Origin: Nitrosopumilus sp.
GTDB lineage: Archaea; Thermoproteota; Nitrososphaeria; Nitrososphaerales; Nitrosopumilaceae
Reading direction: 5' to 3'
DNA: 64,000 bases
NCBI RefSeq assembly: GCF_025699255.1
Contig: NZ_JAILWA010000005.1
Coordinates: 33,611 to 97,610, forward strand
A model generated the notes under the pieces. That model had not been told where the DNA came from and made no database searches. It saw nothing but the letters and a program-made list of their open reading frames with translations. Made by a program: the position numbers and the translations under genes. The stretch's first letter is position 1. Every line of letters begins with the position of its first letter. This document shows positions 13,114-22,404 of this stretch, in pieces.

Positions 13114-13193
13114 TTTTTTTAAAATACAATTTGGGTATTATTCTGGGATTATTTGGTAAAAACATCTTAAACAATATTGAAGTTTATTTTTCA

Positions 13194-14471
13194 ATGACAA
13201 GAACGAAACTTATGGGAATGTCTGTAACAATTCTATCAATATCTTTGATGGCTTTGTTTGTTCAACCTTCAGAAAATGTCTCACAAGAAGTGTTTGCAGA
13301 ACAAAATTCTATGATACAAGATTCTATACCAATGATAGGGCAGATTCAATCACAAGAAAACATTTCAGTAGAATTCAATGTGCCTGAAATAATTGTAGCA
13401 GGGAAATTAGTTCCAATTAACGCAAAAGTTGTTGATTCCAATCTCGATGCAAATCTTTCACATACTGATTGGGCATATGCAATAATTGGTCTTAATGGAG
13501 AAATTGTTCATAAAACCACCACACTTCATGGGCATTTTGGAGTAATGAACTTTAAAGATAGTTTTCCTGAAGCTGGAACATATACGATAAAGTATACTGT
13601 GTCCTCATCTGGACCTTTCATGCTTGGGTTACCAATACCCGAACTAGGTCAAACAAGAGCAGTAGTATCAGGAGACATATTGAAATTTGAGCAAGACCCA
13701 AAGAACAATTTTGGTTCAAGAACCTTTGAATTTTCAGTAGATGTAGTTAATCAAGGAAAAACTATTGCTTTAGCAGGTTCTCAACCTGATACTGAAGTCT
13801 TAGTTAAGTTCACTACAAAACCTGAAAGAATTGTTGTAGGACAACCAACTACTATACTCATTGACGTAAATGATGCAAAAACTGGAGAAGATGCAACCCA
13901 TGTAGATGGCCAGTTGACTATTAGCAGAGGATACTATCATTATCCATCATCTTCTGCAGACCAACCCGATGCACCAATTCCATTACATGGTGCATATCAT
14001 GGTCACAAAGGTGCAATGGCAACTACACATACATTTTCACAACCCGGAACATACTTGATTACAGCAGATTTGAGTTCCATACCCTACTCAATACCAAATT
14101 TTGGTGAATCCTCAACCCTATTTGTAATTCAAGTTCATGAAAATGAGGAGACCTCTCAAATCATGCAAAGCATGAGACCTGTAGAAAATGTAAAAGAAAA
14201 TGCCGTTGACATTGTAGGATTGGAATCTCCATTTTATGTTCCAAATATGATCAAAGTGACTTCTGGCCAAACTATTACCTTTGATAATGTGGATGGAAAT
14301 CAACACACTGTCACATCTGTTAAATCTGGAACTACTGAATTTGATGGAAAGTTTGATAGCAGTCTTTTGCAACCTGGAGAAAAGTTTGATCTAACTCTCA
14401 ATGAGAAAGGAACGTATGACTATTTTTGTGCACTGCATACTAGTATGCAAGGAACAATCATAGTTTCCTAA
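13194..14471 (+). CDS. Secreted blue-copper (cupredoxin) protein with long N-terminal domain
   Basis: I chose ATG 13194, which gives 425 aa with a signal peptide (MGMSVTILSISLMALFV, cleavage near VFAEQ). The middle holds two beta domains, one with an unusually His-rich stretch (YYHYPSSS, GAYHGHKGAM) that could also bind metal. The last ~90 residues are a plastocyanin-like domain with type-1 copper ligands visible: His in GNQHTVTS, and Cys, His and Met in YFCALHTSM. Such proteins serve as extracellular electron carriers in ammonia-oxidizing archaea. Physiological partner unknown. Confidence 0.85.
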   Translation: MTRTKLMGMSVTILSISLMALFVQPSENVSQEVFAEQNSMIQDSIPMIGQIQSQENISVEFNVPEIIVAGKLVPINAKVVDSNLDANLSHTDWAYAIIGLNGEIVHKTTTLHGHFGVMNFKDSFPEAGTYTIKYTVSSSGPFMLGLPIPELGQTRAVVSGDILKFEQDPKNNFGSRTFEFSVDVVNQGKTIALAGSQPDTEVLVKFTTKPERIVVGQPTTILIDVNDAKTGEDATHVDGQLTISRGYYHYPSSSADQPDAPIPLHGAYHGHKGAMATTHTFSQPGTYLITADLSSIPYSIPNFGESSTLFVIQVHENEETSQIMQSMRPVENVKENAVDIVGLESPFYVPNMIKVTSGQTITFDNVDGNQHTVTSVKSGTTEFDGKFDSSLLQPGEKFDLTLNEKGTYDYFCALHTSMQGTIIVS

Positions 14472-14643
14472 TTTTCTTTTTTTTATTTTTCTGACTATCA
14501 TAATCTGCAATGCATTTGCTACAAAGATAAGCAGGATCAGTAAGGAGATTGATGCTAGCTTGTAGGTTATCTTTTGATTTACAGCACATGCAAAATTTTT
14601 CTTTATTTGCTTTCTTTTTCACTTGTATCGAACAATTACTCAT
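14458..14643 (-). CDS. Small zinc-ribbon-like protein, 61 aa
   Basis: Basic protein with two Cys pairs: FCMCCKSKDN and YLCSKCIADYD, spaced about 22 residues, forming a four-Cys zinc site. The C-terminus is a Lys tract (KNKKKKIRKL). It overlaps the preceding gene by 8 bases on the same strand and the cupredoxin 3' end by 14 bases antisense. Last gene of a three-gene Zn-protein operon. Confidence 0.65.
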   Translation of the reverse strand: MSNCSIQVKKKANKEKFCMCCKSKDNLQASINLLTDPAYLCSKCIADYDSQKNKKKKIRKL

Positions 14644-14860
14644 TACTCATATTAGAAGTGTGACTAGGATCATTTCTAACTGCTTCTCTGGCCCTCTTTT
14701 CAATATTTACAATAAATGAATCTCTACACCCTTGAGAACAAAATTTTTCTCTATCCCCTTCAAAAGATTTTCCACAATGTACACAAATCATTTCCATTTT
14801 TCTATGATTCATCTCACACCTCATAAAAATAGATGGTTTACTCGGATTATCTTCTTTCAT
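14636..14860 (-). CDS. Small zinc-finger protein, 74 aa
   Basis: The core MICVHCGKSFEGDREKFCSQ then GCRDSF is a CxxC...CSxxC knuckle resembling the short treble-clef (MYM/FCS-like) fingers that mediate protein or nucleic-acid binding. It sits between two other small zinc proteins on the minus strand, overlapping by 4 bases upstream (ATGA) and 8 bases downstream. No enzymatic motif. Confidence 0.7.
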   Translation of the reverse strand: MKEDNPSKPSIFMRCEMNHRKMEMICVHCGKSFEGDREKFCSQGCRDSFIVNIEKRAREAVRNDPSHTSNMSNE

Positions 14861-15042
14861 GCAGTCATTTGTTTTTGCTGATGTTTGATGGCACTAACAG
14901 TATACAATATGTTATCTCCTTCAGGCATTGGGTTTGCACACTGACCACATTCAGGCAATATCACAGTTGCATCATAATCAATTTCTCCTATGGTTTTTCC
15001 ACAGCTTCTACAACAAACTGATTTTGTATCATAAATATTCAT
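14857..15042 (-). CDS. Small zinc-ribbon protein, 61 aa
   Basis: I chose ATG 15042 because AAAGGTGA lies just ahead of it, a strong Shine-Dalgarno match; ATG 15069 is in frame. Cys pairs SVCCRSCGKTIG and LPECGQCANPMP make a four-Cys ribbon. The C-terminus (SAIKHQQKQMTA) is helical. First gene of the three-gene zinc-protein operon (14458-15042). Confidence 0.7.
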   Translation of the reverse strand: MNIYDTKSVCCRSCGKTIGEIDYDATVILPECGQCANPMPEGDNILYTVSAIKHQQKQMTA

Positions 15043-15161
15043 TTTTTCACCTTTTGAATATTCTACCATGATTTTGATATTAAAGGAGGAGAGAAATTGA
15101 TTTCATTTAGAATCAAGTCAACTTGTTATCTCTTTAATTCCATCATCTCATAATATCACCC

Positions 15162-15542
15162 ATGAACAAAGTAAAACTTGTAGATCAAGAAAAATTCCTA
15201 AATAGCATCATGAATGTTTCAGCAAACATACGATATGTCATGATTTATGATTTGAAAGGAAATGTGATTCATAAACGTAAAATGGATGGAGTGACAGATT
15301 TGCTAACAGAAGAAGAAAATAAAACTGCTTTAAAGCACACTATAGAGTCTTGGAACTTTAGAAATACAATTTCAGAAAAAATTGGAAATGCAAATTATAC
15401 ACTACAGGTATATGACAACTTGATGAGATGTATTTTTCCATTTGGTGAGGAAATGCTTCTCATAGTTACACTGGATAATGCTGGAGGTCCAAATAATATT
15501 ATTCATAGGATCCAGACCATCTTGTCAGGGCATTTGAAGTAA
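15162..15542 (+). CDS. Hypothetical protein, possible profilin/roadblock-like fold
   Basis: The 126-aa protein has the pattern helix, IRYVMIYDLKGNVIHKRK, helix, YTLQVYDNLMRCIFPF, EEMLLIVTLDN, then a C-terminal helix. Beta-strand pairs holding -YDLKGNVI- and -LLIVTLD- resemble small sensory folds (roadblock/LC7-like), but I cannot confirm the family. Such proteins are common in Nitrosopumilus genomes. The first CxC microprotein begins 10 bases downstream. Confidence 0.6.
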   Translation: MNKVKLVDQEKFLNSIMNVSANIRYVMIYDLKGNVIHKRKMDGVTDLLTEEENKTALKHTIESWNFRNTISEKIGNANYTLQVYDNLMRCIFPFGEEMLLIVTLDNAGGPNNIIHRIQTILSGHLK

Positions 15543-15552
15543 TATTGCAACC

Positions 15553-15651
15553 ATGAATACAGCTAGATCCTACTATCAAAAAATTTGCTCAGACTGTAAG
15601 AGAGTGCATTGCAGAGAAGGATGTAATTGTGATTGTCATTGGGAACCTTAA
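15553..15651 (+). CDS. CxxC...CxC microprotein, 32 aa
   Basis: Sequence MNTARSYYQKICSDCKRVHC then REGCNCDCHWEP. It has seven Cys and two His in 32 residues, a composition that can only be structural (Zn or Fe-S). It shares the CxxC-n-CxC plan with the 31-aa proteins at 16635 and 16894. It begins 10 bases after the previous gene and is probably co-transcribed. Confidence 0.55.
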   Translation: MNTARSYYQKICSDCKRVHCREGCNCDCHWEP

Positions 15652-15658
15652 GATAATT

Positions 15659-15778
15659 TTGGCAAATAGTTTACTGACTACAAAAACTTGTTATCACGAT
15701 GCTAAAGTCAAGATGGCAGGATACAAGGATATGTATGAATGCACACGTTGCCACAAATTTATCCACTTATCAAATTAA
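15659..15778 (+). CDS. Small zinc-binding protein, 39 aa
   Basis: With a TTG start at 15659 the product is 39 aa and contains CYHDAKVKMAGYKDMYECTR then CHKFIHLSN, i.e. C-x-H...C-x2-C-H...H. An internal ATG at 15713 would give 21 aa and lose the first Cys/His. It follows the CxC microprotein by 7 bases. Confidence 0.4.
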   Translation: MANSLLTTKTCYHDAKVKMAGYKDMYECTRCHKFIHLSN

Positions 15779-15857
15779 AAATTTGATAAATAAATTGTAG
15801 ATTCATCTACTATTTGGGATTAGGTGATATATTTTCCAATCTGACTCTTATTCTCAT

Positions 15858-16007
15858 TCATTCACCGTGAACTCGAAGATCCTTATCAATATCCAAAATT
15901 TTCCATTTTTTGCCAAACAAGGTTAGCGTTTCAAATTCTTTCATCTTGTTTACAAGATGTTTTGGCAAATCATCAAAACTATCATATTTCACCAATTTTT
16001 TCAGCAT
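15858..16007 (-). CDS. Small basic hypothetical protein, 49 aa
   Basis: ATG 16007 opens a frame MLKKLVKYDSFDDLPKHLVN then KMKEFETLTLFGKKWKILDI and DKDLRVHGE. It is a compact, charged, probably folded helix-strand peptide with no Cys. A second short frame (27 aa, 15982-16065) overlaps its 5' end; it may be a coupled upstream peptide or chance. Confidence 0.4.
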   Translation of the reverse strand: MLKKLVKYDSFDDLPKHLVNKMKEFETLTLFGKKWKILDIDKDLRVHGE

Positions 16008-16105
16008 TATTTTCCCAGCAGGTAAATCTTATCTCTACTGCTTCAAGGAACTCCTCATCAGGCATTGTGTTTTTTAAACAAATTTCTTTCCAATCTTGCT
16101 TGAAA

Positions 16106-16291
16106 TTATGAGACGTTTAAGTGCTGAATTTCCTGATTTACCTGTTCTGATACAGTCTTTTCATTAGATAATGCATCACGATATTTCAAGAATGTTACAG
16201 TATCCATTTTAGCTTGGAAAAATAGAAATTCTAATTCTAATCTTTTTAATCGATTCATCTCTGCTAATTCTTCTTCTATTCTTTTTGACAT
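16106..16291 (-). CDS. Small coiled-coil protein, 61 aa
   Basis: An almost wholly helical, charged sequence (MSKRIEEELAEMNRLKRLEL then EFLFFQAKMDTVTFLKYRDA) with heptad-like Leu/Ile spacing. Divergent from the zinc-microprotein operon starting at 16414. No known family recognised. Confidence 0.5.
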   Translation of the reverse strand: MSKRIEEELAEMNRLKRLELEFLFFQAKMDTVTFLKYRDALSNEKTVSEQVNQEIQHLNVS

Positions 16292-16413
16292 AATTGTATT
16301 AGAAAATCATTGCACTTAAGGATGCATATTTTTTTGCATTGTTGATAATCTGTATTAATCCTTGGATTTTGCCATATTACGTCGGTATATATCAGAGATA
16401 AACTAGATAAAGT

Positions 16414-16527
16414 ATGTTTAAAAAAATACTTGGAAAATTGAAATTTGGTTCTTACAAAACTAAAGCCACTGACGTAAATTCATTTGCAGAATCTGAGACA
16501 AAGAATCCAGAGGATTTAGAAAAGTAA
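16414..16527 (+). CDS. Small basic protein, 37 aa
   Basis: MFKKILGKLKFGSYKTKATD followed by an acidic tail (FAESETKNPEDLEK). GGTATATATC at about 16385-16394 lies 24-28 bases upstream, fitting a leaderless promoter. It heads a run of four genes with no gaps: the next frame starts at the base after its stop. Confidence 0.45.
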   Translation: MFKKILGKLKFGSYKTKATDVNSFAESETKNPEDLEK

Positions 16528-16635
16528 TTGACATATCATTGCAAATATTGTAGTTTTACTTGGGATCCAGTGGAAGGTAATATACAAAAATTACTTTTAC
16601 ATGAAAAGACTCACAAAGAGAGAGTTTTAGCATAA
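16528..16635 (+). CDS. C2H2-type mini zinc finger, 35 aa
   Basis: TTG start directly after the preceding TAA. The whole protein is one finger: YHCKYCSFTWDP, then HEKTHKE, i.e. C-x2-C-x17-H-x4-H with the aromatic and Leu core of C2H2 domains. Its TAA overlaps the next ATG (TAATG, 16633-16637). Confidence 0.6.
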   Translation: MTYHCKYCSFTWDPVEGNIQKLLLHEKTHKERVLA

Positions 16636-16730
16636 TGGTAATTTGTAATAAATGCTATAACGAACATCATGATCAATGTATGGGGAAAGCTGGAATGTTT
16701 GATTGCGAGTGCAAGTGTTTTAAAAAATGA
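16635..16730 (+). CDS. CxxC...CxC microprotein, 31 aa
   Basis: MVICNKCYNEHHDQCMGKAG then MFDCECKCFKK: six Cys and two His in 31 residues. Overlaps its neighbours at both ends (TAATG upstream, ATGA downstream). Same plan as the products at 15553 and 16894. Confidence 0.6.
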   Translation: MVICNKCYNEHHDQCMGKAGMFDCECKCFKK

Positions 16731-16858
16731 AATATCAATGCTCTGAATGCGATTTTCATTGGATTGGTACCTCATATACCTTTGATGAGGTACGCGAACA
16801 CGAAAAAATCCACTTGAAAAAGAATAAACCTAAAACAATTAGGACTAATTTTTCATAA
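16727..16858 (+). CDS. C2H2-type mini zinc finger, 43 aa
   Basis: MKYQCSECDFHWIGTSYTFD then EVREHEKIHLKKNKPK, giving C-x2-C...H-x3-H with a basic C-terminal tail. Starts inside the previous stop (ATGA). Closely similar in plan to the finger at 16528 (aromatic after the knuckle, HEK-x-H), so probably a paralogue in the same operon. Confidence 0.65.
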   Translation: MKYQCSECDFHWIGTSYTFDEVREHEKIHLKKNKPKTIRTNFS

Positions 16859-16893
16859 AAAAAGGGGAAATACTATAACATACTTGGTGATGT

Positions 16894-16989
16894 GTGTCAA
16901 ATCAACTATACTGTGAAGTATGTCACAAACTAAAATATCCAAGATTTGCCAATCAAAGTAAATGCGAATGCAAGGAATCTATTCTTTAA
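16894..16989 (+). CDS. CxxC...CxC microprotein, 31 aa (GTG start)
   Basis: The GTG at 16894 is preceded by TTGGTGAT (16884-16891), a good anti-Shine-Dalgarno match. Product MSNQLYCEVCHKLKYPRFAN then QSKCECKESIL: a CxxC-H knuckle and a CxC separated by 14 residues. Third member of the microprotein family. Confidence 0.55.
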   Translation: MSNQLYCEVCHKLKYPRFANQSKCECKESIL

Positions 16990-17031
16990 TTTAAAAATCT
17001 GACTTAATAGCAATGAAGTGTTACATAATTC

Positions 17032-17280
17032 ATGAAGATTAGAAAAAATATGACAAAAGAAAAATGGAAATCTGAAAAGGAAGTTTTGAAATCTCAAAAG
17101 GCCATGCTAAAAGCTAGCGAAGCGGAAATTGATGCAAAAAGAACTGCAACAAAAATTGGTAGTCCGCAAAGACTTGCCCTAACAAAAAAACGAAAAGCAA
17201 TCAAAATCAAATTAGACAAATGGAAAGCTAAAATGTCATTATGGAAAGCCGAAAAAGCTATTTGGGATTCAAAACACTAG
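17032..17280 (+). CDS. Lys-rich coiled-coil protein, 82 aa
   Basis: MKIRKNMTKEKWKSEKEVLK onward is about one-third Lys, with regular Trp/Leu/Met heptad positions (KWKAKMSLWKAEKAIWDSK). It would be a basic helical hairpin, possibly nucleic-acid binding. No family recognised. No gap-free linkage to neighbours. Confidence 0.55.
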   Translation: MKIRKNMTKEKWKSEKEVLKSQKAMLKASEAEIDAKRTATKIGSPQRLALTKKRKAIKIKLDKWKAKMSLWKAEKAIWDSKH

Positions 17281-17362
17281 TTACACTTAGCACAGATTAG
17301 AATAAAAAAATCATAATCCAAAATGTTTCTAATTTATGTAAATAATAAAAAGAAATTTGTTG

Positions 17363-17512
17363 CTAACCGAAGATTCCGCTAGCAACAGAGTATGCTCCAA
17401 TTCCAATTCCCATTACTACACCGATTCCCATGCAGATGAGGTCGAATTTTACAACCTTTTTGAAGGGAGCATGAACCATTTTATCCCAATTTGAGATTTG
17501 TTGTGATTTCAT
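17363..17512 (-). CDS. Small single-pass membrane protein, 49 aa
   Basis: The cytoplasmic N-terminus MKSQQISNWDKMVHAPFKKV is followed by one Gly-rich hydrophobic helix (LICMGIGVVMGIGIGAYSV). Such short proteins are often accessory subunits of membrane complexes, but I see no family signature. Divergent from the 59-aa zinc protein at 17662, with two perfect palindromes between. Confidence 0.6.
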   Translation of the reverse strand: MKSQQISNWDKMVHAPFKKVVKFDLICMGIGVVMGIGIGAYSVASGIFG

Positions 17513-17554
17513 GATTATTGTTAGTTCTAGTTAGCAATAGAGTATAGTAAGCTT

Positions 17555-17579
17555 GTCAGCTGACTTGTCAACATGTTGA
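17555..17579. promoter_or_regulatory. Two adjacent palindromes GTCAGCTGAC and TCAACATGTTGA
   Basis: 17555-17564 and 17568-17579 are perfect 10-bp and 12-bp palindromes 3 bp apart, in the divergent region between the 49-aa membrane protein and the 59-aa zinc protein. A 14-bp direct repeat (TAATTAGCTT-TATC / -CTTC) follows at 17591-17618. A TTTAAATAA box about 24 bases before ATG 17662 serves the plus gene. Confidence 0.45.
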
Positions 17580-17661
17580 TTTTTATTTTTTAATTAGCTT
17601 TATCTAATTAGCTTCTTCTAATTTTAGAACGATTTTTAAATAATTTTTACTAAACTATTAC

Positions 17662-17841
17662 ATGAACAACAAATCATGTCAAATATGTTCTTCTTCATTA
17701 GAAGTTGAAAGCACATGCAAATTTTGTGATGAACCAACACGACTATTTTGTCATACATGTGGTGTAATGGCTGAAAAAACAGCACATCCAGCTTGTATGG
17801 TAATTGATGTAAATAGAATGTTGTTGGAAACTACACAATAA
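17662..17841 (+). CDS. C6HC-type small zinc protein, 59 aa
   Basis: Three CxxC knuckles plus H-x2-C: CQIC, CKFC, CHTC and AHPACM. Alignment with the 60-aa protein at 22222 gives the shared pattern C-x2-C-x8-C-x2-C-x6-C-x2-C-x7-H-x2-C-M, so they are paralogues. Two zinc ions could be bound in a cross-brace. Leaderless start downstream of TTTAAATAA. Molecular role unknown. Confidence 0.7.
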   Translation: MNNKSCQICSSSLEVESTCKFCDEPTRLFCHTCGVMAEKTAHPACMVIDVNRMLLETTQ

Positions 17842-17906
17842 TTTTTTCATTTTTTATTCCTGTAAATGTTAATTCAAAATTATGTTTGATAAAATACCCC
17901 AAATTT

Positions 17907-17999
17907 TTAATGCTTTGTGATGTCTTCTCCGCAATGTATGCAAAAATATGTTCCATTTGCACTCCAATAATGTTCACACTCTAAATTTTTCACATTCAT
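17907..17999 (-). CDS. Mini zinc-ribbon protein, 30 aa
   Basis: MNVKNLECEHYWSANGTYFC then IHCGEDITKH: C-x-H ... C-x2-C with a Trp/Tyr core, a half zinc ribbon. The only plausible coding frame in the 353-base interval 17842-18194. Confidence 0.4.
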   Translation of the reverse strand: MNVKNLECEHYWSANGTYFCIHCGEDITKH

Positions 18000-18791: not shown

Positions 18792-21209
18792 ATGAAAATA
18801 TTTTTTCTTGTATTTTTTGGAATAATTTTAGTTTCTCAAAGTTTTATCCTCTCGTATGGTCAATGGACTGATTACAACGAACATGATCCTGGAATTTCTC
18901 AAAATGTGATGCCTGAGTGGTTTAAAACAAATGCAAAGTGGTGGCAAGATGGACTTATTTCTGATGCTGATATGATAAATGCCCTAGAAAGTTTGATTGA
19001 GCAAGATGTCATTCCTCTTGATAACTTTTTGAAAGACTCTTCTGGAATTGAACATCAGGCGGGTGTACAAAAAGGTGGAACTTTCTACATTCCAAGTTAT
19101 CAAAAAGATGTCTTTGGTTTTTGGAGTGAAGGTCTAGTATCTGATGGTGAAATTGTAAATTCTATCGGTCATCTTATTGGTGAAGGAATAATTGATTCAG
19201 AAATAATTAGAGAAAAACGAACAAGTTTTTCAGAAATTTCAGGCTTGGAAATTGAATCTCCTCCAATTGATTATCGCTCAGGATCTGAAGATGTTTCTGT
19301 AACAAAAATGCCTGGATTAAAAAAATACGCTGATATTACATTAAAGCGTGGTACAGTTTCTGCAATCAATGAAGCACAACAATGGAATAAACTTGCATCT
19401 GAAATGCTTTTCAAACTAAAAGATGGTGAAGAAAAGATTCACAAAAAAAGTTATGAAAATTCTTTACTGATGTATTCTGAATCAAAAACGTTTGAACATT
19501 TGAACCAAATGTTGATTTACAAAGAAAAAAGTGAAAATGCACAAAGTGATGCGTTACTAGCTGTTGAAAATTACAAGAAAATAAAGGAACTGTCTGAACT
19601 TACTGAAGATGAGTATTTGCAAATAGAACGTGATCTTCCTTTGGAATTTGATTTAGAAATTATTGATTCTATAACAAATGAATCTGAATATTTTGAGGCT
19701 TTGGAAAAAATTCAAGAATTTGCAGAAAATGCCTTACGTAAGGCTGAAGAGTCAGTAATTCAACTAAAACAGCAAGCTGATGAAGAATATCCTCGAACTC
19801 ATCCTGATTTTATTTGGGATCCCACATACAATTATGATTCTTCTTTGGGAACAACATCTACTGGTATTAAATGGATTGATTTGAAACTCATATTGGATTC
19901 AAATGATCAAAGAGATTCTACAGTGAAGATAAGGACACCATTTTTGCTTGAACGGTTGTTTGATCCTTCAATTATTCAAACTCATTCCATGATTGAACAA
20001 CTTGATGAAAATCCATTTGACTCTACTTACAAACTAGATTCTACAGATCTCTACCAATATCCTGAAGATGTGGCAAGAATTTTACAATCTATAATTATTA
20101 TTGGCCCTCATGATACCTCAAACTTTTGGTTACCTGTATCATTTACAACCACTGTGTTCATCTCGAATTCATCAATCCAAATTGCAATTTTTGATTCTGA
20201 CGGAAATAATATTTCTGATTTTGTAGAGATAATGTCAAATGATGACCATCAAATCATCTTTTTACCTGCTGAACATGATTTGGTTTTCATCTCTCTTACT
20301 AATCCGAATTCTGATTACACTACATTTGAAACTGCCATAGAGTATTCTGAAATTACGTCCAATCCTGAATTAGTAATGACTCCTATTGATTCACCTTTAA
20401 TTGAGTTTGGAACAAACACTCCTCTCTATGAAATTCCACCTGGTTTTGATGCTGTATATTCTTCATTTGATGATTTCTCATCTGCTGAATTTGAATATGA
20501 ATCTGAAATGTCATTGATGGATTATTTGAAAAATGAACAACTATTCTTCTCTGAATGTCTTTTACCTCCTGCAGGAAGTACTCTAAGTGGACCAACCCCT
20601 CCTGAAAAATCTAGACATAATGCAAACTATTGTGGTATTAGCGCATTTATTCATTCTATGGAAACGACTTTCCCCGGAGCATTATCTCATGATATCAGAA
20701 CAAACTCTGCACAATGGGACAGGCTAGGAGATAACCTAGATCACTCTAACACTTTTGGTGAAAGAGGGGGAAAGTTTGTTGAAAATGTCAACAAGAATTT
20801 TGGAAACAAAGTCATTACTGGCAATGGAAAGAAATATTGTGCAGCTGAAATTGAAGACACAACTCCTGCTAATCTTGAAGCATGGAACGATATTTGCAAT
20901 GTCAAAATGTTAGTCTATGATATCCCTTCATTTGGTCATTGGGTTGACCTCACATCAATTAGCGGAAATAAAATAACTTATCAGGATTATGGTCATAACC
21001 ATCCTGCAACTTTTGATGGTAAAGTGGTTGATTTTTCAAACTCTAATTTGGGAGGACCTATGAAAGATCATTTTAGAGGAAACAATGCAAAGGCAGGAGA
21101 TGGATTTTTTGAATCTGTACAGTTTTACGCTGTTTGTGAATGTGATAAAAATTCCTCATCCAAAATGCCTACAAAAAATTCCAAGGGACAGACTCTAAAA
21201 TTAGAATAA
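18792..21209 (+). CDS. Large secreted protein with W-rich modules and a papain-like peptidase domain
   Basis: The 805-aa product has a signal peptide (FFLVFFGIILVSQSFILSYG). Two W-rich helical modules follow: MPEWFKTNAKWWQDGLISDA at about 37-75, then FWSEGLVSDGEIVNSIGHLI at about 108-134. Similar modules flank many thaumarchaeal secreted domains. A charged helical region and beta domains come next. The C-terminal ~190 residues have a papain-like dyad: Cys614 in NYCGISAF and His716 in FGHWVDLTSI, with YQDYGHN following. This suggests a secreted C39/transglutaminase-like cysteine peptidase; the substrate is unknown. Confidence 0.7.
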   Translation: MKIFFLVFFGIILVSQSFILSYGQWTDYNEHDPGISQNVMPEWFKTNAKWWQDGLISDADMINALESLIEQDVIPLDNFLKDSSGIEHQAGVQKGGTFYIPSYQKDVFGFWSEGLVSDGEIVNSIGHLIGEGIIDSEIIREKRTSFSEISGLEIESPPIDYRSGSEDVSVTKMPGLKKYADITLKRGTVSAINEAQQWNKLASEMLFKLKDGEEKIHKKSYENSLLMYSESKTFEHLNQMLIYKEKSENAQSDALLAVENYKKIKELSELTEDEYLQIERDLPLEFDLEIIDSITNESEYFEALEKIQEFAENALRKAEESVIQLKQQADEEYPRTHPDFIWDPTYNYDSSLGTTSTGIKWIDLKLILDSNDQRDSTVKIRTPFLLERLFDPSIIQTHSMIEQLDENPFDSTYKLDSTDLYQYPEDVARILQSIIIIGPHDTSNFWLPVSFTTTVFISNSSIQIAIFDSDGNNISDFVEIMSNDDHQIIFLPAEHDLVFISLTNPNSDYTTFETAIEYSEITSNPELVMTPIDSPLIEFGTNTPLYEIPPGFDAVYSSFDDFSSAEFEYESEMSLMDYLKNEQLFFSECLLPPAGSTLSGPTPPEKSRHNANYCGISAFIHSMETTFPGALSHDIRTNSAQWDRLGDNLDHSNTFGERGGKFVENVNKNFGNKVITGNGKKYCAAEIEDTTPANLEAWNDICNVKMLVYDIPSFGHWVDLTSISGNKITYQDYGHNHPATFDGKVVDFSNSNLGGPMKDHFRGNNAKAGDGFFESVQFYAVCECDKNSSSKMPTKNSKGQTLKLE

Positions 21210-22085: not shown

Positions 22086-22211
22086 ATGATGGATTATAAT
22101 TCATCCCTAAAGCAAGTCAAAGACTCTTTCAAATCTTCTATGGAGAGAGTTTCCTCAGAATGTGAGGAAGTTTTTTCCAAATGGAAGTTTGGCAGGAGAA
22201 ACTTTCCCTGA
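22086..22211 (+). CDS. Small helical protein, 41 aa
   Basis: MMDYNSSLKQVKDSFKSSME then RVSSECEEVFSKWKFGRRNF: charged, amphipathic, one Cys. Starts 12 bases after the Hsp20 stop, with GGAGG (22077-22081) just ahead as a ribosome-binding site. Its TGA (22209-22211) adjoins the next reading frame. Confidence 0.5.
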   Translation: MMDYNSSLKQVKDSFKSSMERVSSECEEVFSKWKFGRRNFP

Positions 22212-22221
22212 TGTGAAAAAA

Positions 22222-22404
22222 ATGCCAGACACTTTGTGTAGACAATGTGGTGGTGAACTAGATACAGAAAAGCAATGCTTGCATTGCCATCAACCAGTTC
22301 AGCTAGTTTGTACAAAATGTTTGCAACCCACAGAAGTTAGATTTCACAGTCAATGCATGTACAGTGAGGAGATGTTATGTCACACAGTCGCAGCACTTGC
22401 ATAA
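22222..22404 (+). CDS. C6HC-type small zinc protein, 60 aa
   Basis: The start is taken at ATG 22222; a GTG at 22213 immediately after the previous stop is an alternative. It contains CRQCGGELDTEKQCLHC, CTKC and FHSQCM, matching the Cys/His spacing of the 59-aa protein at 17662. The C-terminus overlaps the next gene by 28 bases. Its place behind Hsp20 suggests a stress-related or chaperone-accessory role, which is inference only. Confidence 0.65.
   Translation: MPDTLCRQCGGELDTEKQCLHCHQPVQLVCTKCLQPTEVRFHSQCMYSEEMLCHTVAALA

Follow-up and report, generated by a model that had tools for sequence, protein, structure and literature searches.

Positions 14458–17999 of the window, that is, of the 64-kb stretch of Nitrosopumilus DNA analyzed as a whole, hold 10 of the window's 16 ORFs with a zinc-knuckle-like pattern, counted as an ORF of 25–100 aa with CxxC or CxC and then a second [CH]..[CH] pair. 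One of the 10 (17636–17785, minus strand) lies antisense to gene K and is probably spurious. Shuffling the dinucleotides of the zone 500 times gave a mean of 0.54 patterned ORFs and a maximum of 3, and 221 other 3.5-kb stretches of the same genome, in a comparison covering about 456 of 1,649 kb, window included, had a mean of 1.02 and a best of 6; none reaches 10. These counts confirm the density of tiny Cys/His-rich ORFs claimed in the original prediction. Also confirmed are the overlapping stop and start codons: ATGA is common to the stop of C and the start of B, genes A and B overlap by 8 bp, and the stop/start pairs of G/H and H/I share TAATG and ATGA, respectively. Frame conservation and dN/dS signal had been named beforehand as tests that could refute the prediction, and neither refuted it, with low dN/dS in 13 of the 17 ORF families tested. 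The dN/dS values are median pairwise values over pairs with pS of 0.05–0.70, with orthologues and paralogues mixed; each sequence count takes in the window copy, and at least one place was entered twice (L049 and L087). No relative of M, R, or L was found among the relative loci collected for this comparison. Searches of ten zone proteins against Pfam and NCBIfam gave nothing above cut-off, and in Pfam the ten tiny proteins had no match to the DNA-packaging protein Alba (PF01918) or to TBP, the TATA-binding protein (PF00352). Conserved genes of this class carry the label "hypothetical protein" or no name at all.

A mosaic of small modules

The zone is a mosaic of small modules, each of which recurs separately in Nitrosopumilus genomes. 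Of 94 other genomes of the genus, 73 match it somewhere, and the longest piece among the matches listed spans 498 of 3,701 bases. The zone as a single syntenic system was rejected because its pieces match separately. The proposal that it forms one unit thus fails for the full 3.5 kb and holds for 16381–16989, which comprises the second of the two sub-blocks originally singled out (16414–16858) together with gene J and an upstream box.

Three flanking groups, C-B-A, D-E-F, and K with the divergent TM, are separate small-protein modules gathered in one variable genomic region. The first begins with C (14857–15069, minus strand), a Cys4 protein of 61 aa from the start at 15042, or 70 aa in its long form (dN/dS 0.37, 2 pairs), which has a relative near D at locus L038 of genome G093. 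Next is B (14636–14860, minus strand), a 74-aa protein with an FCS/YacG-like treble-clef pattern, whose best Pfam match, zf-FCS (E 0.001, 19.3 bits), falls below the cut-off of 22.4. B has a paralogue on contig C16 of its own genome, with 85% DNA identity across 143 bases, and its coding signal is weak (dN/dS 0.71, from the 1 pair with this own-genome paralogue). A (14458–14643, minus strand) is a 61-aa Cys4 protein with a relative beside D in L005 (dN/dS 0.07, that 1 pair).

D (15162–15542, plus strand; 126 aa, dN/dS 0.32, 17 sequences) lacks a Cys cluster; the five loci found for it come from Nitrosopumilus MAGs. Its AlphaFold2 model (pLDDT 72) has as best PDB match in Foldseek the MglB structure 1j3w (E 6.5e-7, TM 0.70), and nearly all of the 50 ranks listed are MglB, Ragulator-type, and Roadblock chains; D is accordingly predicted by its model to adopt a roadblock/LC7 (MglB-like) fold. 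Directly behind it lies E (15553–15651, plus strand), 32 aa with the pattern CxxC..CxxxCxCxCH (dN/dS 0.13, 9 sequences), found in 59 of 95 genomes of the genus, own included, and then F (15629–15778, plus strand), a CxxC protein of 21–49 aa (dN/dS 0.34, 8 sequences). N (16106–16291, minus strand; dN/dS 0.28, 8 sequences) has 61 aa, no Cys, and by eye a helical character; in relatives it closes a string with the order Alba-finger-H-N. K (17662–17841, plus strand; dN/dS 0.33, 7 sequences) is a multi-CxxC protein of 59 aa resembling a zinc ribbon or B-box, and TM (17363–17512, minus strand; dN/dS 0.15, 9 sequences) has 49 aa with a hydrophobic stretch, by eye a membrane protein. Found in 55 and 29 of the 95 genomes, own included, the two lie within 1.5 kb of each other at 13 of 41 K places, against 0.17 expected. 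Finally, L (17907–17999, minus strand), a CxxC ORF of 30 aa, is unsupported as a gene because it has no relative among the loci compared.

The conserved string at 16381–16989

Positions 16381–16989, plus strand, hold five tiny genes in a conserved string behind a promoter-like box, with G, H, and I overlapping. The box, GTCGGTATATA (16381–16391; pattern GYCRGTATATA), precedes the start of G0 by 33 nt and probably serves a leaderless transcript as its TATA box plus upstream element. Across 851 kb the pattern was found 7 times, with a G0 start 33–35 nt downstream in 6 cases and the seventh at the end of its stretch, a result that leans on 395 kb of relatives picked because they carry these modules. 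Among 30 boxes from other genomes just 9 precede G0; because 14 precede another conserved element (for which two tested loci gave no Rfam match at gathering score) and 7 neither, the idea that the box is a signature private to this operon is weakened.

The leader gene G0 (16414–16527; dN/dS 0.33, 36 sequences) encodes a Lys-rich protein of 37 aa (MFKKILGKLKFG...) without metal ligands and is found upstream of H at 22 of the 41 H loci examined in the genus. Directly behind its stop, G (16528–16635; dN/dS 0.33, 19 sequences) starts with TTG and encodes a predicted C2H2-type single finger of 35 aa; H (16635–16730; dN/dS 0.14, 53 sequences) follows with 31 aa and the pattern CxxC..HxxC..CxCxC, and I (16727–16858; dN/dS 0.26, 38 sequences) is a second predicted finger, of 43 aa. 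The last gene, J (16894–16989; dN/dS 0.11, 4 sequences), has a GTG start and encodes a CxxC..CxC protein of 31 aa. Own genome included, J occurs in 16 of 95 genomes at 17 places, of which 13 (counted by eye) have a finger no more than 2 kb away; in single-contig genomes it is near a finger at 5 of 5 places, against 0.04 expected. Nitrosopumilus cobalaminigenes and Ca. Nitrosopumilus sp. SW are among the strains with these genes.

Classical C2H2 fingers have the spacing C-x2-4-C-x12-H-x3-5-H. G and I depart from it, with 16 residues between their Cys and His pairs (C-x2-C-x16-H-x3-H). C5, C8, H25, and H29 are invariant in an alignment of 20 finger sequences (20 of the 22 rows of an earlier one, the mis-framed row L052 being left out), and the family occurs in 80 of 400 genomes of the order, own included, and in 6 of 66 genera. 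The structure model of I is β-β-α, with pLDDT about 90 across residues 1–30, and predicts a single C2H2-type finger for I and, by similarity, for G. No C2H2-type Pfam model passes for either protein: the best match of I is zf-H2C2_5 (E 0.099, 12.7 bits, cut-off 27), and G matches rubredoxin alone (E 0.019), below cut-off. PDB sequence profiles gave insignificant finger matches only.

H is present in 122 of the 400 order genomes (own included) and 13 of the 66 genera, all of one family, with 54–90% identity in the 12 other genera. A comparison with PDB sequence profiles found none for H, and our literature search found no paper on H or on the finger-H string. Of the 41 genus H loci examined (the window plus 40 of 64 genus H places, the other 23 being left out), 32 have a finger just upstream, 13 adjoin a TBP gene, and 6 lie behind an Alba gene; outside the genus, 22 of 24 loci are without TBP or Alba neighbors. 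A separate count of finger-H spacing in 45 loci gave 33 with a finger, 10 without, and 2 dropped (L089 and L095, which lack the first CxxC pattern). Alba and TBP are counted as neighbors of the tiny genes, not as members. Compared with the other Alba proteins of each genome, the one in the finger string scores lowest in 6 of 7 cases and second lowest in the seventh. In an 18-row alignment, the invariant residues of H include the non-ligands Q14, M16, K18, G20, and M21, which point to contacts and not to mere metal storage.

Possible functions and related systems

Since some relatives lie beside a TBP gene or behind an Alba gene, the tiny proteins probably bind zinc and assist in gene control. 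We tentatively propose, at somewhat under an even chance, that the string encodes zinc-binding proteins that partner with the transcription and chromatin machinery of archaea. Its genes would be co-transcribed from the box as a leaderless mRNA and translated by coupling. G and I may each coordinate a single zinc ion and contact nucleic acid, while H would bind metal via its CxxC/HxxC/CxCxC residues and dock onto other proteins through its conserved center, HDQCMGKAGMFDC. Finger and H as a pair, or H by itself where it adjoins TBP, could then adjust the use of promoters or chromatin by TBP and Alba.

A different reading, which we consider possible if somewhat unlikely, takes the zone for a variable genomic island in which unrelated tiny proteins that bind zinc and serve separate tasks have happened to collect, with no shared function beyond being small and non-core. 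The separate recurrence of the modules fits an island, as does the enrichment of such ORFs at two further places of the genome, contigs C15 and C16, the former encoding a phage-type integrase. Linkage tests, made in 12 single-contig genomes against a uniform null, likewise found no link between H and E (0 of 8), E and TM (0 of 22), or E and K (1 of 22). However, G0-finger-H-I, J, D-E-F, and K with TM recur in a constant order or at close distance, and a finger is near E and near K in 5 of 24 cases each, against 0.14 and 0.17 expected. For these cross-module links the island keeps its weight, because a uniform null takes no account of the tendency of islands to gather non-core genes.

A mobile or selfish nature of the modules, for example as toxin-antitoxin-like pairs or as viral or plasmid remnants, is decidedly improbable. 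The modules are patchy, multi-copy, and rearranged between species, finger and H form overlapping two-gene pairs, and the integrase on C15 would suit such an origin. However, H keeps its identity across genera and its low dN/dS, and its TBP and Alba neighbors are core-type genes. A viral origin found no support: in scans that reach close relatives only, finger and H had no relatives in IMG/VR viral contigs and H was absent from 50,697 phage records. Least probable of all is a metal-handling set for buffering, delivering, or sensing zinc or copper, which would fit the Cys/His content, a cupredoxin-domain protein encoded next door (13131–14471), and a low-scoring cupredoxin match (43 bits) in L004, some 1 kb away from D-E-F, whereas at the other relative loci compared a cupredoxin match is absent or several kb off the module genes (L047, L051) and the invariant residues of H include non-ligands. 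Of the original suggestion of a regulatory or metal-handling system, the regulatory half is thus favored because of the TBP and Alba neighbors; the metal half draws on little more than Cys content and the adjacent cupredoxin gene.

Marine ammonia-oxidizing archaea are very abundant and have several TBP and TFB copies and few known regulators. Our most specific version of the regulatory reading, which we think unlikely in its full detail, is that H is a new 31-residue family of TBP-/Alba-docking metal microproteins that, with coupled single C2H2 fingers, switches the TBP or Alba variant used per promoter in these archaea, its own operon being wired through the GCCGGTATATA box. If this is true, it would be a micro-scale layer of general-transcription-factor control undescribed before in archaea. 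H, found in 13 genera and repeatedly beside TBP or behind Alba within Nitrosopumilus, makes with its coupled fingers a short gene list for tests of promoter choice and DNA packing.

Small zinc-finger proteins of archaea have precedents. Brz of Halobacterium salinarum is a small zinc-finger transcription regulator encoded beside its target gene (PMC2253796); as described there, it resembles in kind what is proposed for the proteins here and differs in organism and gene setting. The C(P)XCG zinc-finger micro-proteins of Haloferax volcanii, 12 of 16 of whose deletion mutants show genetic importance (PMC6562870; the set is also treated in PMC11241148 and PMC10716476), are likewise archaeal, carry CxxC knuckles, and stay below 70 aa; in the zone, G, H, I, J, E, K, A, and L have 30–61 aa, B has 74, and the long form of C 70. 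In contrast, that set is defined in its abstracts by two C(P)XCG motifs, and the zone proteins do not have two: by eye, CxxCG is absent from G, H, I, J, E, A, and F and occurs once each in B, C, K, and L. The abstracts mention neither a finger-H string nor a TBP/Alba neighborhood, and one of them (PMC6562870 or PMC11241148) states that AlphaFold2 cannot tell metal-binding geometry. Close to the fingers in size and predicted β-β-α fold is AFV1p06 of AFV1, a 59-aa single C2H2 finger that binds zinc and DNA (PMC3541406). According to that source, fingers of this type are crenarchaeal-viral, with a distant euryarchaeal group and no homologue reported in Thaumarchaeota. A 2013 survey did not find C2H2-type fingers such as those predicted here in Thaumarchaeota. 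By these descriptions the fingers of the window, with their 35–43 aa, 16 residues from Cys to His pair, and coupling to H, are set apart from the AFV1p06 type.

Coding content of the zone

The zone (14458–17999) lies in a 1.65-Mb genome of 20 contigs. Inspection of its open reading frames (ORFs) recovered those named in the original prediction, and a pattern count found 10 ORFs with a zinc-knuckle-like pattern in 3.54 kb. Across 500 dinucleotide shuffles of the zone the mean was 0.54 and the highest count 3, and the best of 221 other stretches from this genome had 6. Two further spots, on contigs C15 and C16, are likewise rich in pattern ORFs. The predicted frames also carry a dN/dS signal: with putative starts and relatives from the retrieved loci, median pairwise dN/dS was below 0.5 in 13 of 17 families (H, E, J, A, TM, I, N, D, G0, G, K, F, and C; A being one pair and C two). 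The FCS-like Cys protein B gave a weak coding signal (0.71, a single paralogue pair), and for the ORFs M, R, and L the loci used contained no relatives. Gene M (15858–16077) has the appearance of a decayed gene, related frames being broken alike in the window and in L057.

A mosaic of modules

The suggestion that the zone forms a single unit did not survive comparison across the genus. A whole-zone DNA search gave hits in 73 of the 94 other genomes of the genus, but each hit was a short piece standing apart from the rest; of those listed, the longest spans 498 of 3,701 bases. These pieces (16376–16844, containing G0-G-H-I; the roadblock/LC7-like D; E/F; the Cys protein C; A; the Cys-less N; the multi-CxxC K; and the putative membrane protein TM) vary in place and order and frequently occur in multiple copies per genome. 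Relatives of D were found at five loci, all in Nitrosopumilus MAGs. The modules repeated across retrieved loci are G0-finger-H-finger and its variants, D-E-F, a divergent pairing of E-F with G0-finger, and K and TM as a divergent pair. At a distance of up to 1.5 kb in 12 single-contig genomes, H lies close to a C2H2-type finger in 8/8 cases, and K to TM in 13/41 (0.17 expected under uniform placement). The near-absence of linkage of H to E (0/8), E to TM (0/22), and E to K (1/22) argues against one system. Fingers are nonetheless close to E (5/24; expected 0.14) and to K (5/24; expected 0.17), and an island accumulating tiny, mutually unrelated zinc proteins is a serious rival account of such cross-module clustering.

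A second island with the same families lies on contig C15 (L055, 11324–12754 and 4694–10208), containing G0-finger, J, Alba-finger-H-N, and further FCS-like Cys proteins, and adjoins genes for a phage-type integrase and a CopG-type regulator. Downstream of the zone, 18792–21209 encodes an 805-aa protein with, by eye, an N-terminal signal-like stretch, residues 141–207 of which match Phage_T4_gp19 (tail tube, PF06841; E 4.1e-12), and 22162–22404, 4 kb from the zone, an 80-aa weak relative of K (20 bits).

The finger-H string and its putative promoter

The core string comprises a promoter-like box, GTCGGTATATA (16381), the Lys-rich leader G0 (16414), finger G (16528), the CxxC..HxxC..CxCxC protein H (16635), finger I (16727), and the CxxC..CxC protein J (16894, stop 16989). 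G and H overlap by one base (TAATG), and H and I by ATGA. Finger-H spacing is −13 to 12 bases in all 33 pairs measured, 17 of which show the one-base overlap, the window's pair being among them in both counts. J has a finger no more than 2 kb away in 5/5 cases in single-contig genomes and, counted by eye, at 13 of 17 places in 95 genomes.

A finger is close to the box in 14/24 cases (expected 0.12; the same 12 genomes and distance). The box stands 33–35 nt upstream of G0 despite unalike surrounding upstream DNA, a spacing that fits the TATA box of a leaderless transcript. Upstream of the finger in L107 and L108, G0 is apparently cut to ~14 codons, with its start (MFKK...) and the box retained, as if the leader start alone mattered. 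Of the 30 box loci fetched, 14 carried a conserved element, GTCAGTATATAAAATTTTAGAGTGTGATGAAGATCG (with variants), in most cases without a clear ORF behind it (at about position 1500 in L130, L134, L139, L144, L148, L150, and L157); two of these (L134 and L150) gave no Rfam match at gathering score, and the element is possibly the promoter of an undescribed stable RNA.

Neighbors of H and known systems

H occurs in 13 genera, with 54–90% identity in the 12 beyond its own. Its 41 sampled loci within the genus (the window and 40 fetched from among 63 further places) comprise G0-finger-H (20), G0-finger-H-I (2), Alba-finger-H (6, with N in 5), finger-H (4), and solo H (9). Eight of the nine solo copies are divergent from a TATA-binding protein (TBP) gene, 72–81 nt separating the TBP match from the H ORF, and in five loci a G0-finger-H string and TBP converge (gap 41–63 nt). 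Pfam confirmed the identity of a single representative TBP and of two Alba proteins, the remaining copies being called by tblastn or phmmer. TBP identity is 99–100% in the convergent set, 76–96% in the divergent set, and 75–82% between them, suggesting that two TBP contexts arose. On C15, J, Alba, finger, H, and N are consecutive. Each of 22 genomes has 3–5 genes for Alba, a DNA-packaging protein, and the finger-string copy is the weakest-scoring of its genome in 6/7 genomes. Downstream of solo H in L094 and L095 is an ORF that, by eye, resembles a membrane protein carrying CxxC pairs at its C-terminus.

Gene order, overlaps, and the TBP and Alba neighbors of H together make it likely that finger and H are produced by coupled translation, the finger serving as nucleic-acid-binding partner and H as docking microprotein, and that the pair works on TBP and Alba or together with them. 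As readings of the tiny proteins, metal handling and selfish modules have less support. Any such partnership is unlikely to be fixed family-wide, since finger, TBP, and Alba are absent directly beside H in 22 of 24 loci from other genera.

Among open-licence papers, mostly judged by title or abstract opening, none was found on the H family or the finger-H string. To our knowledge, the closest archaeal C2H2 finger is AFV1p06, for which the study concerned found no homologue in Thaumarchaeota (PMC3541406). The zone proteins lack the pair of C(P)XCG motifs that defines the Haloferax zinc-finger micro-proteins (PMC11241148), yet these are the nearest class to them.
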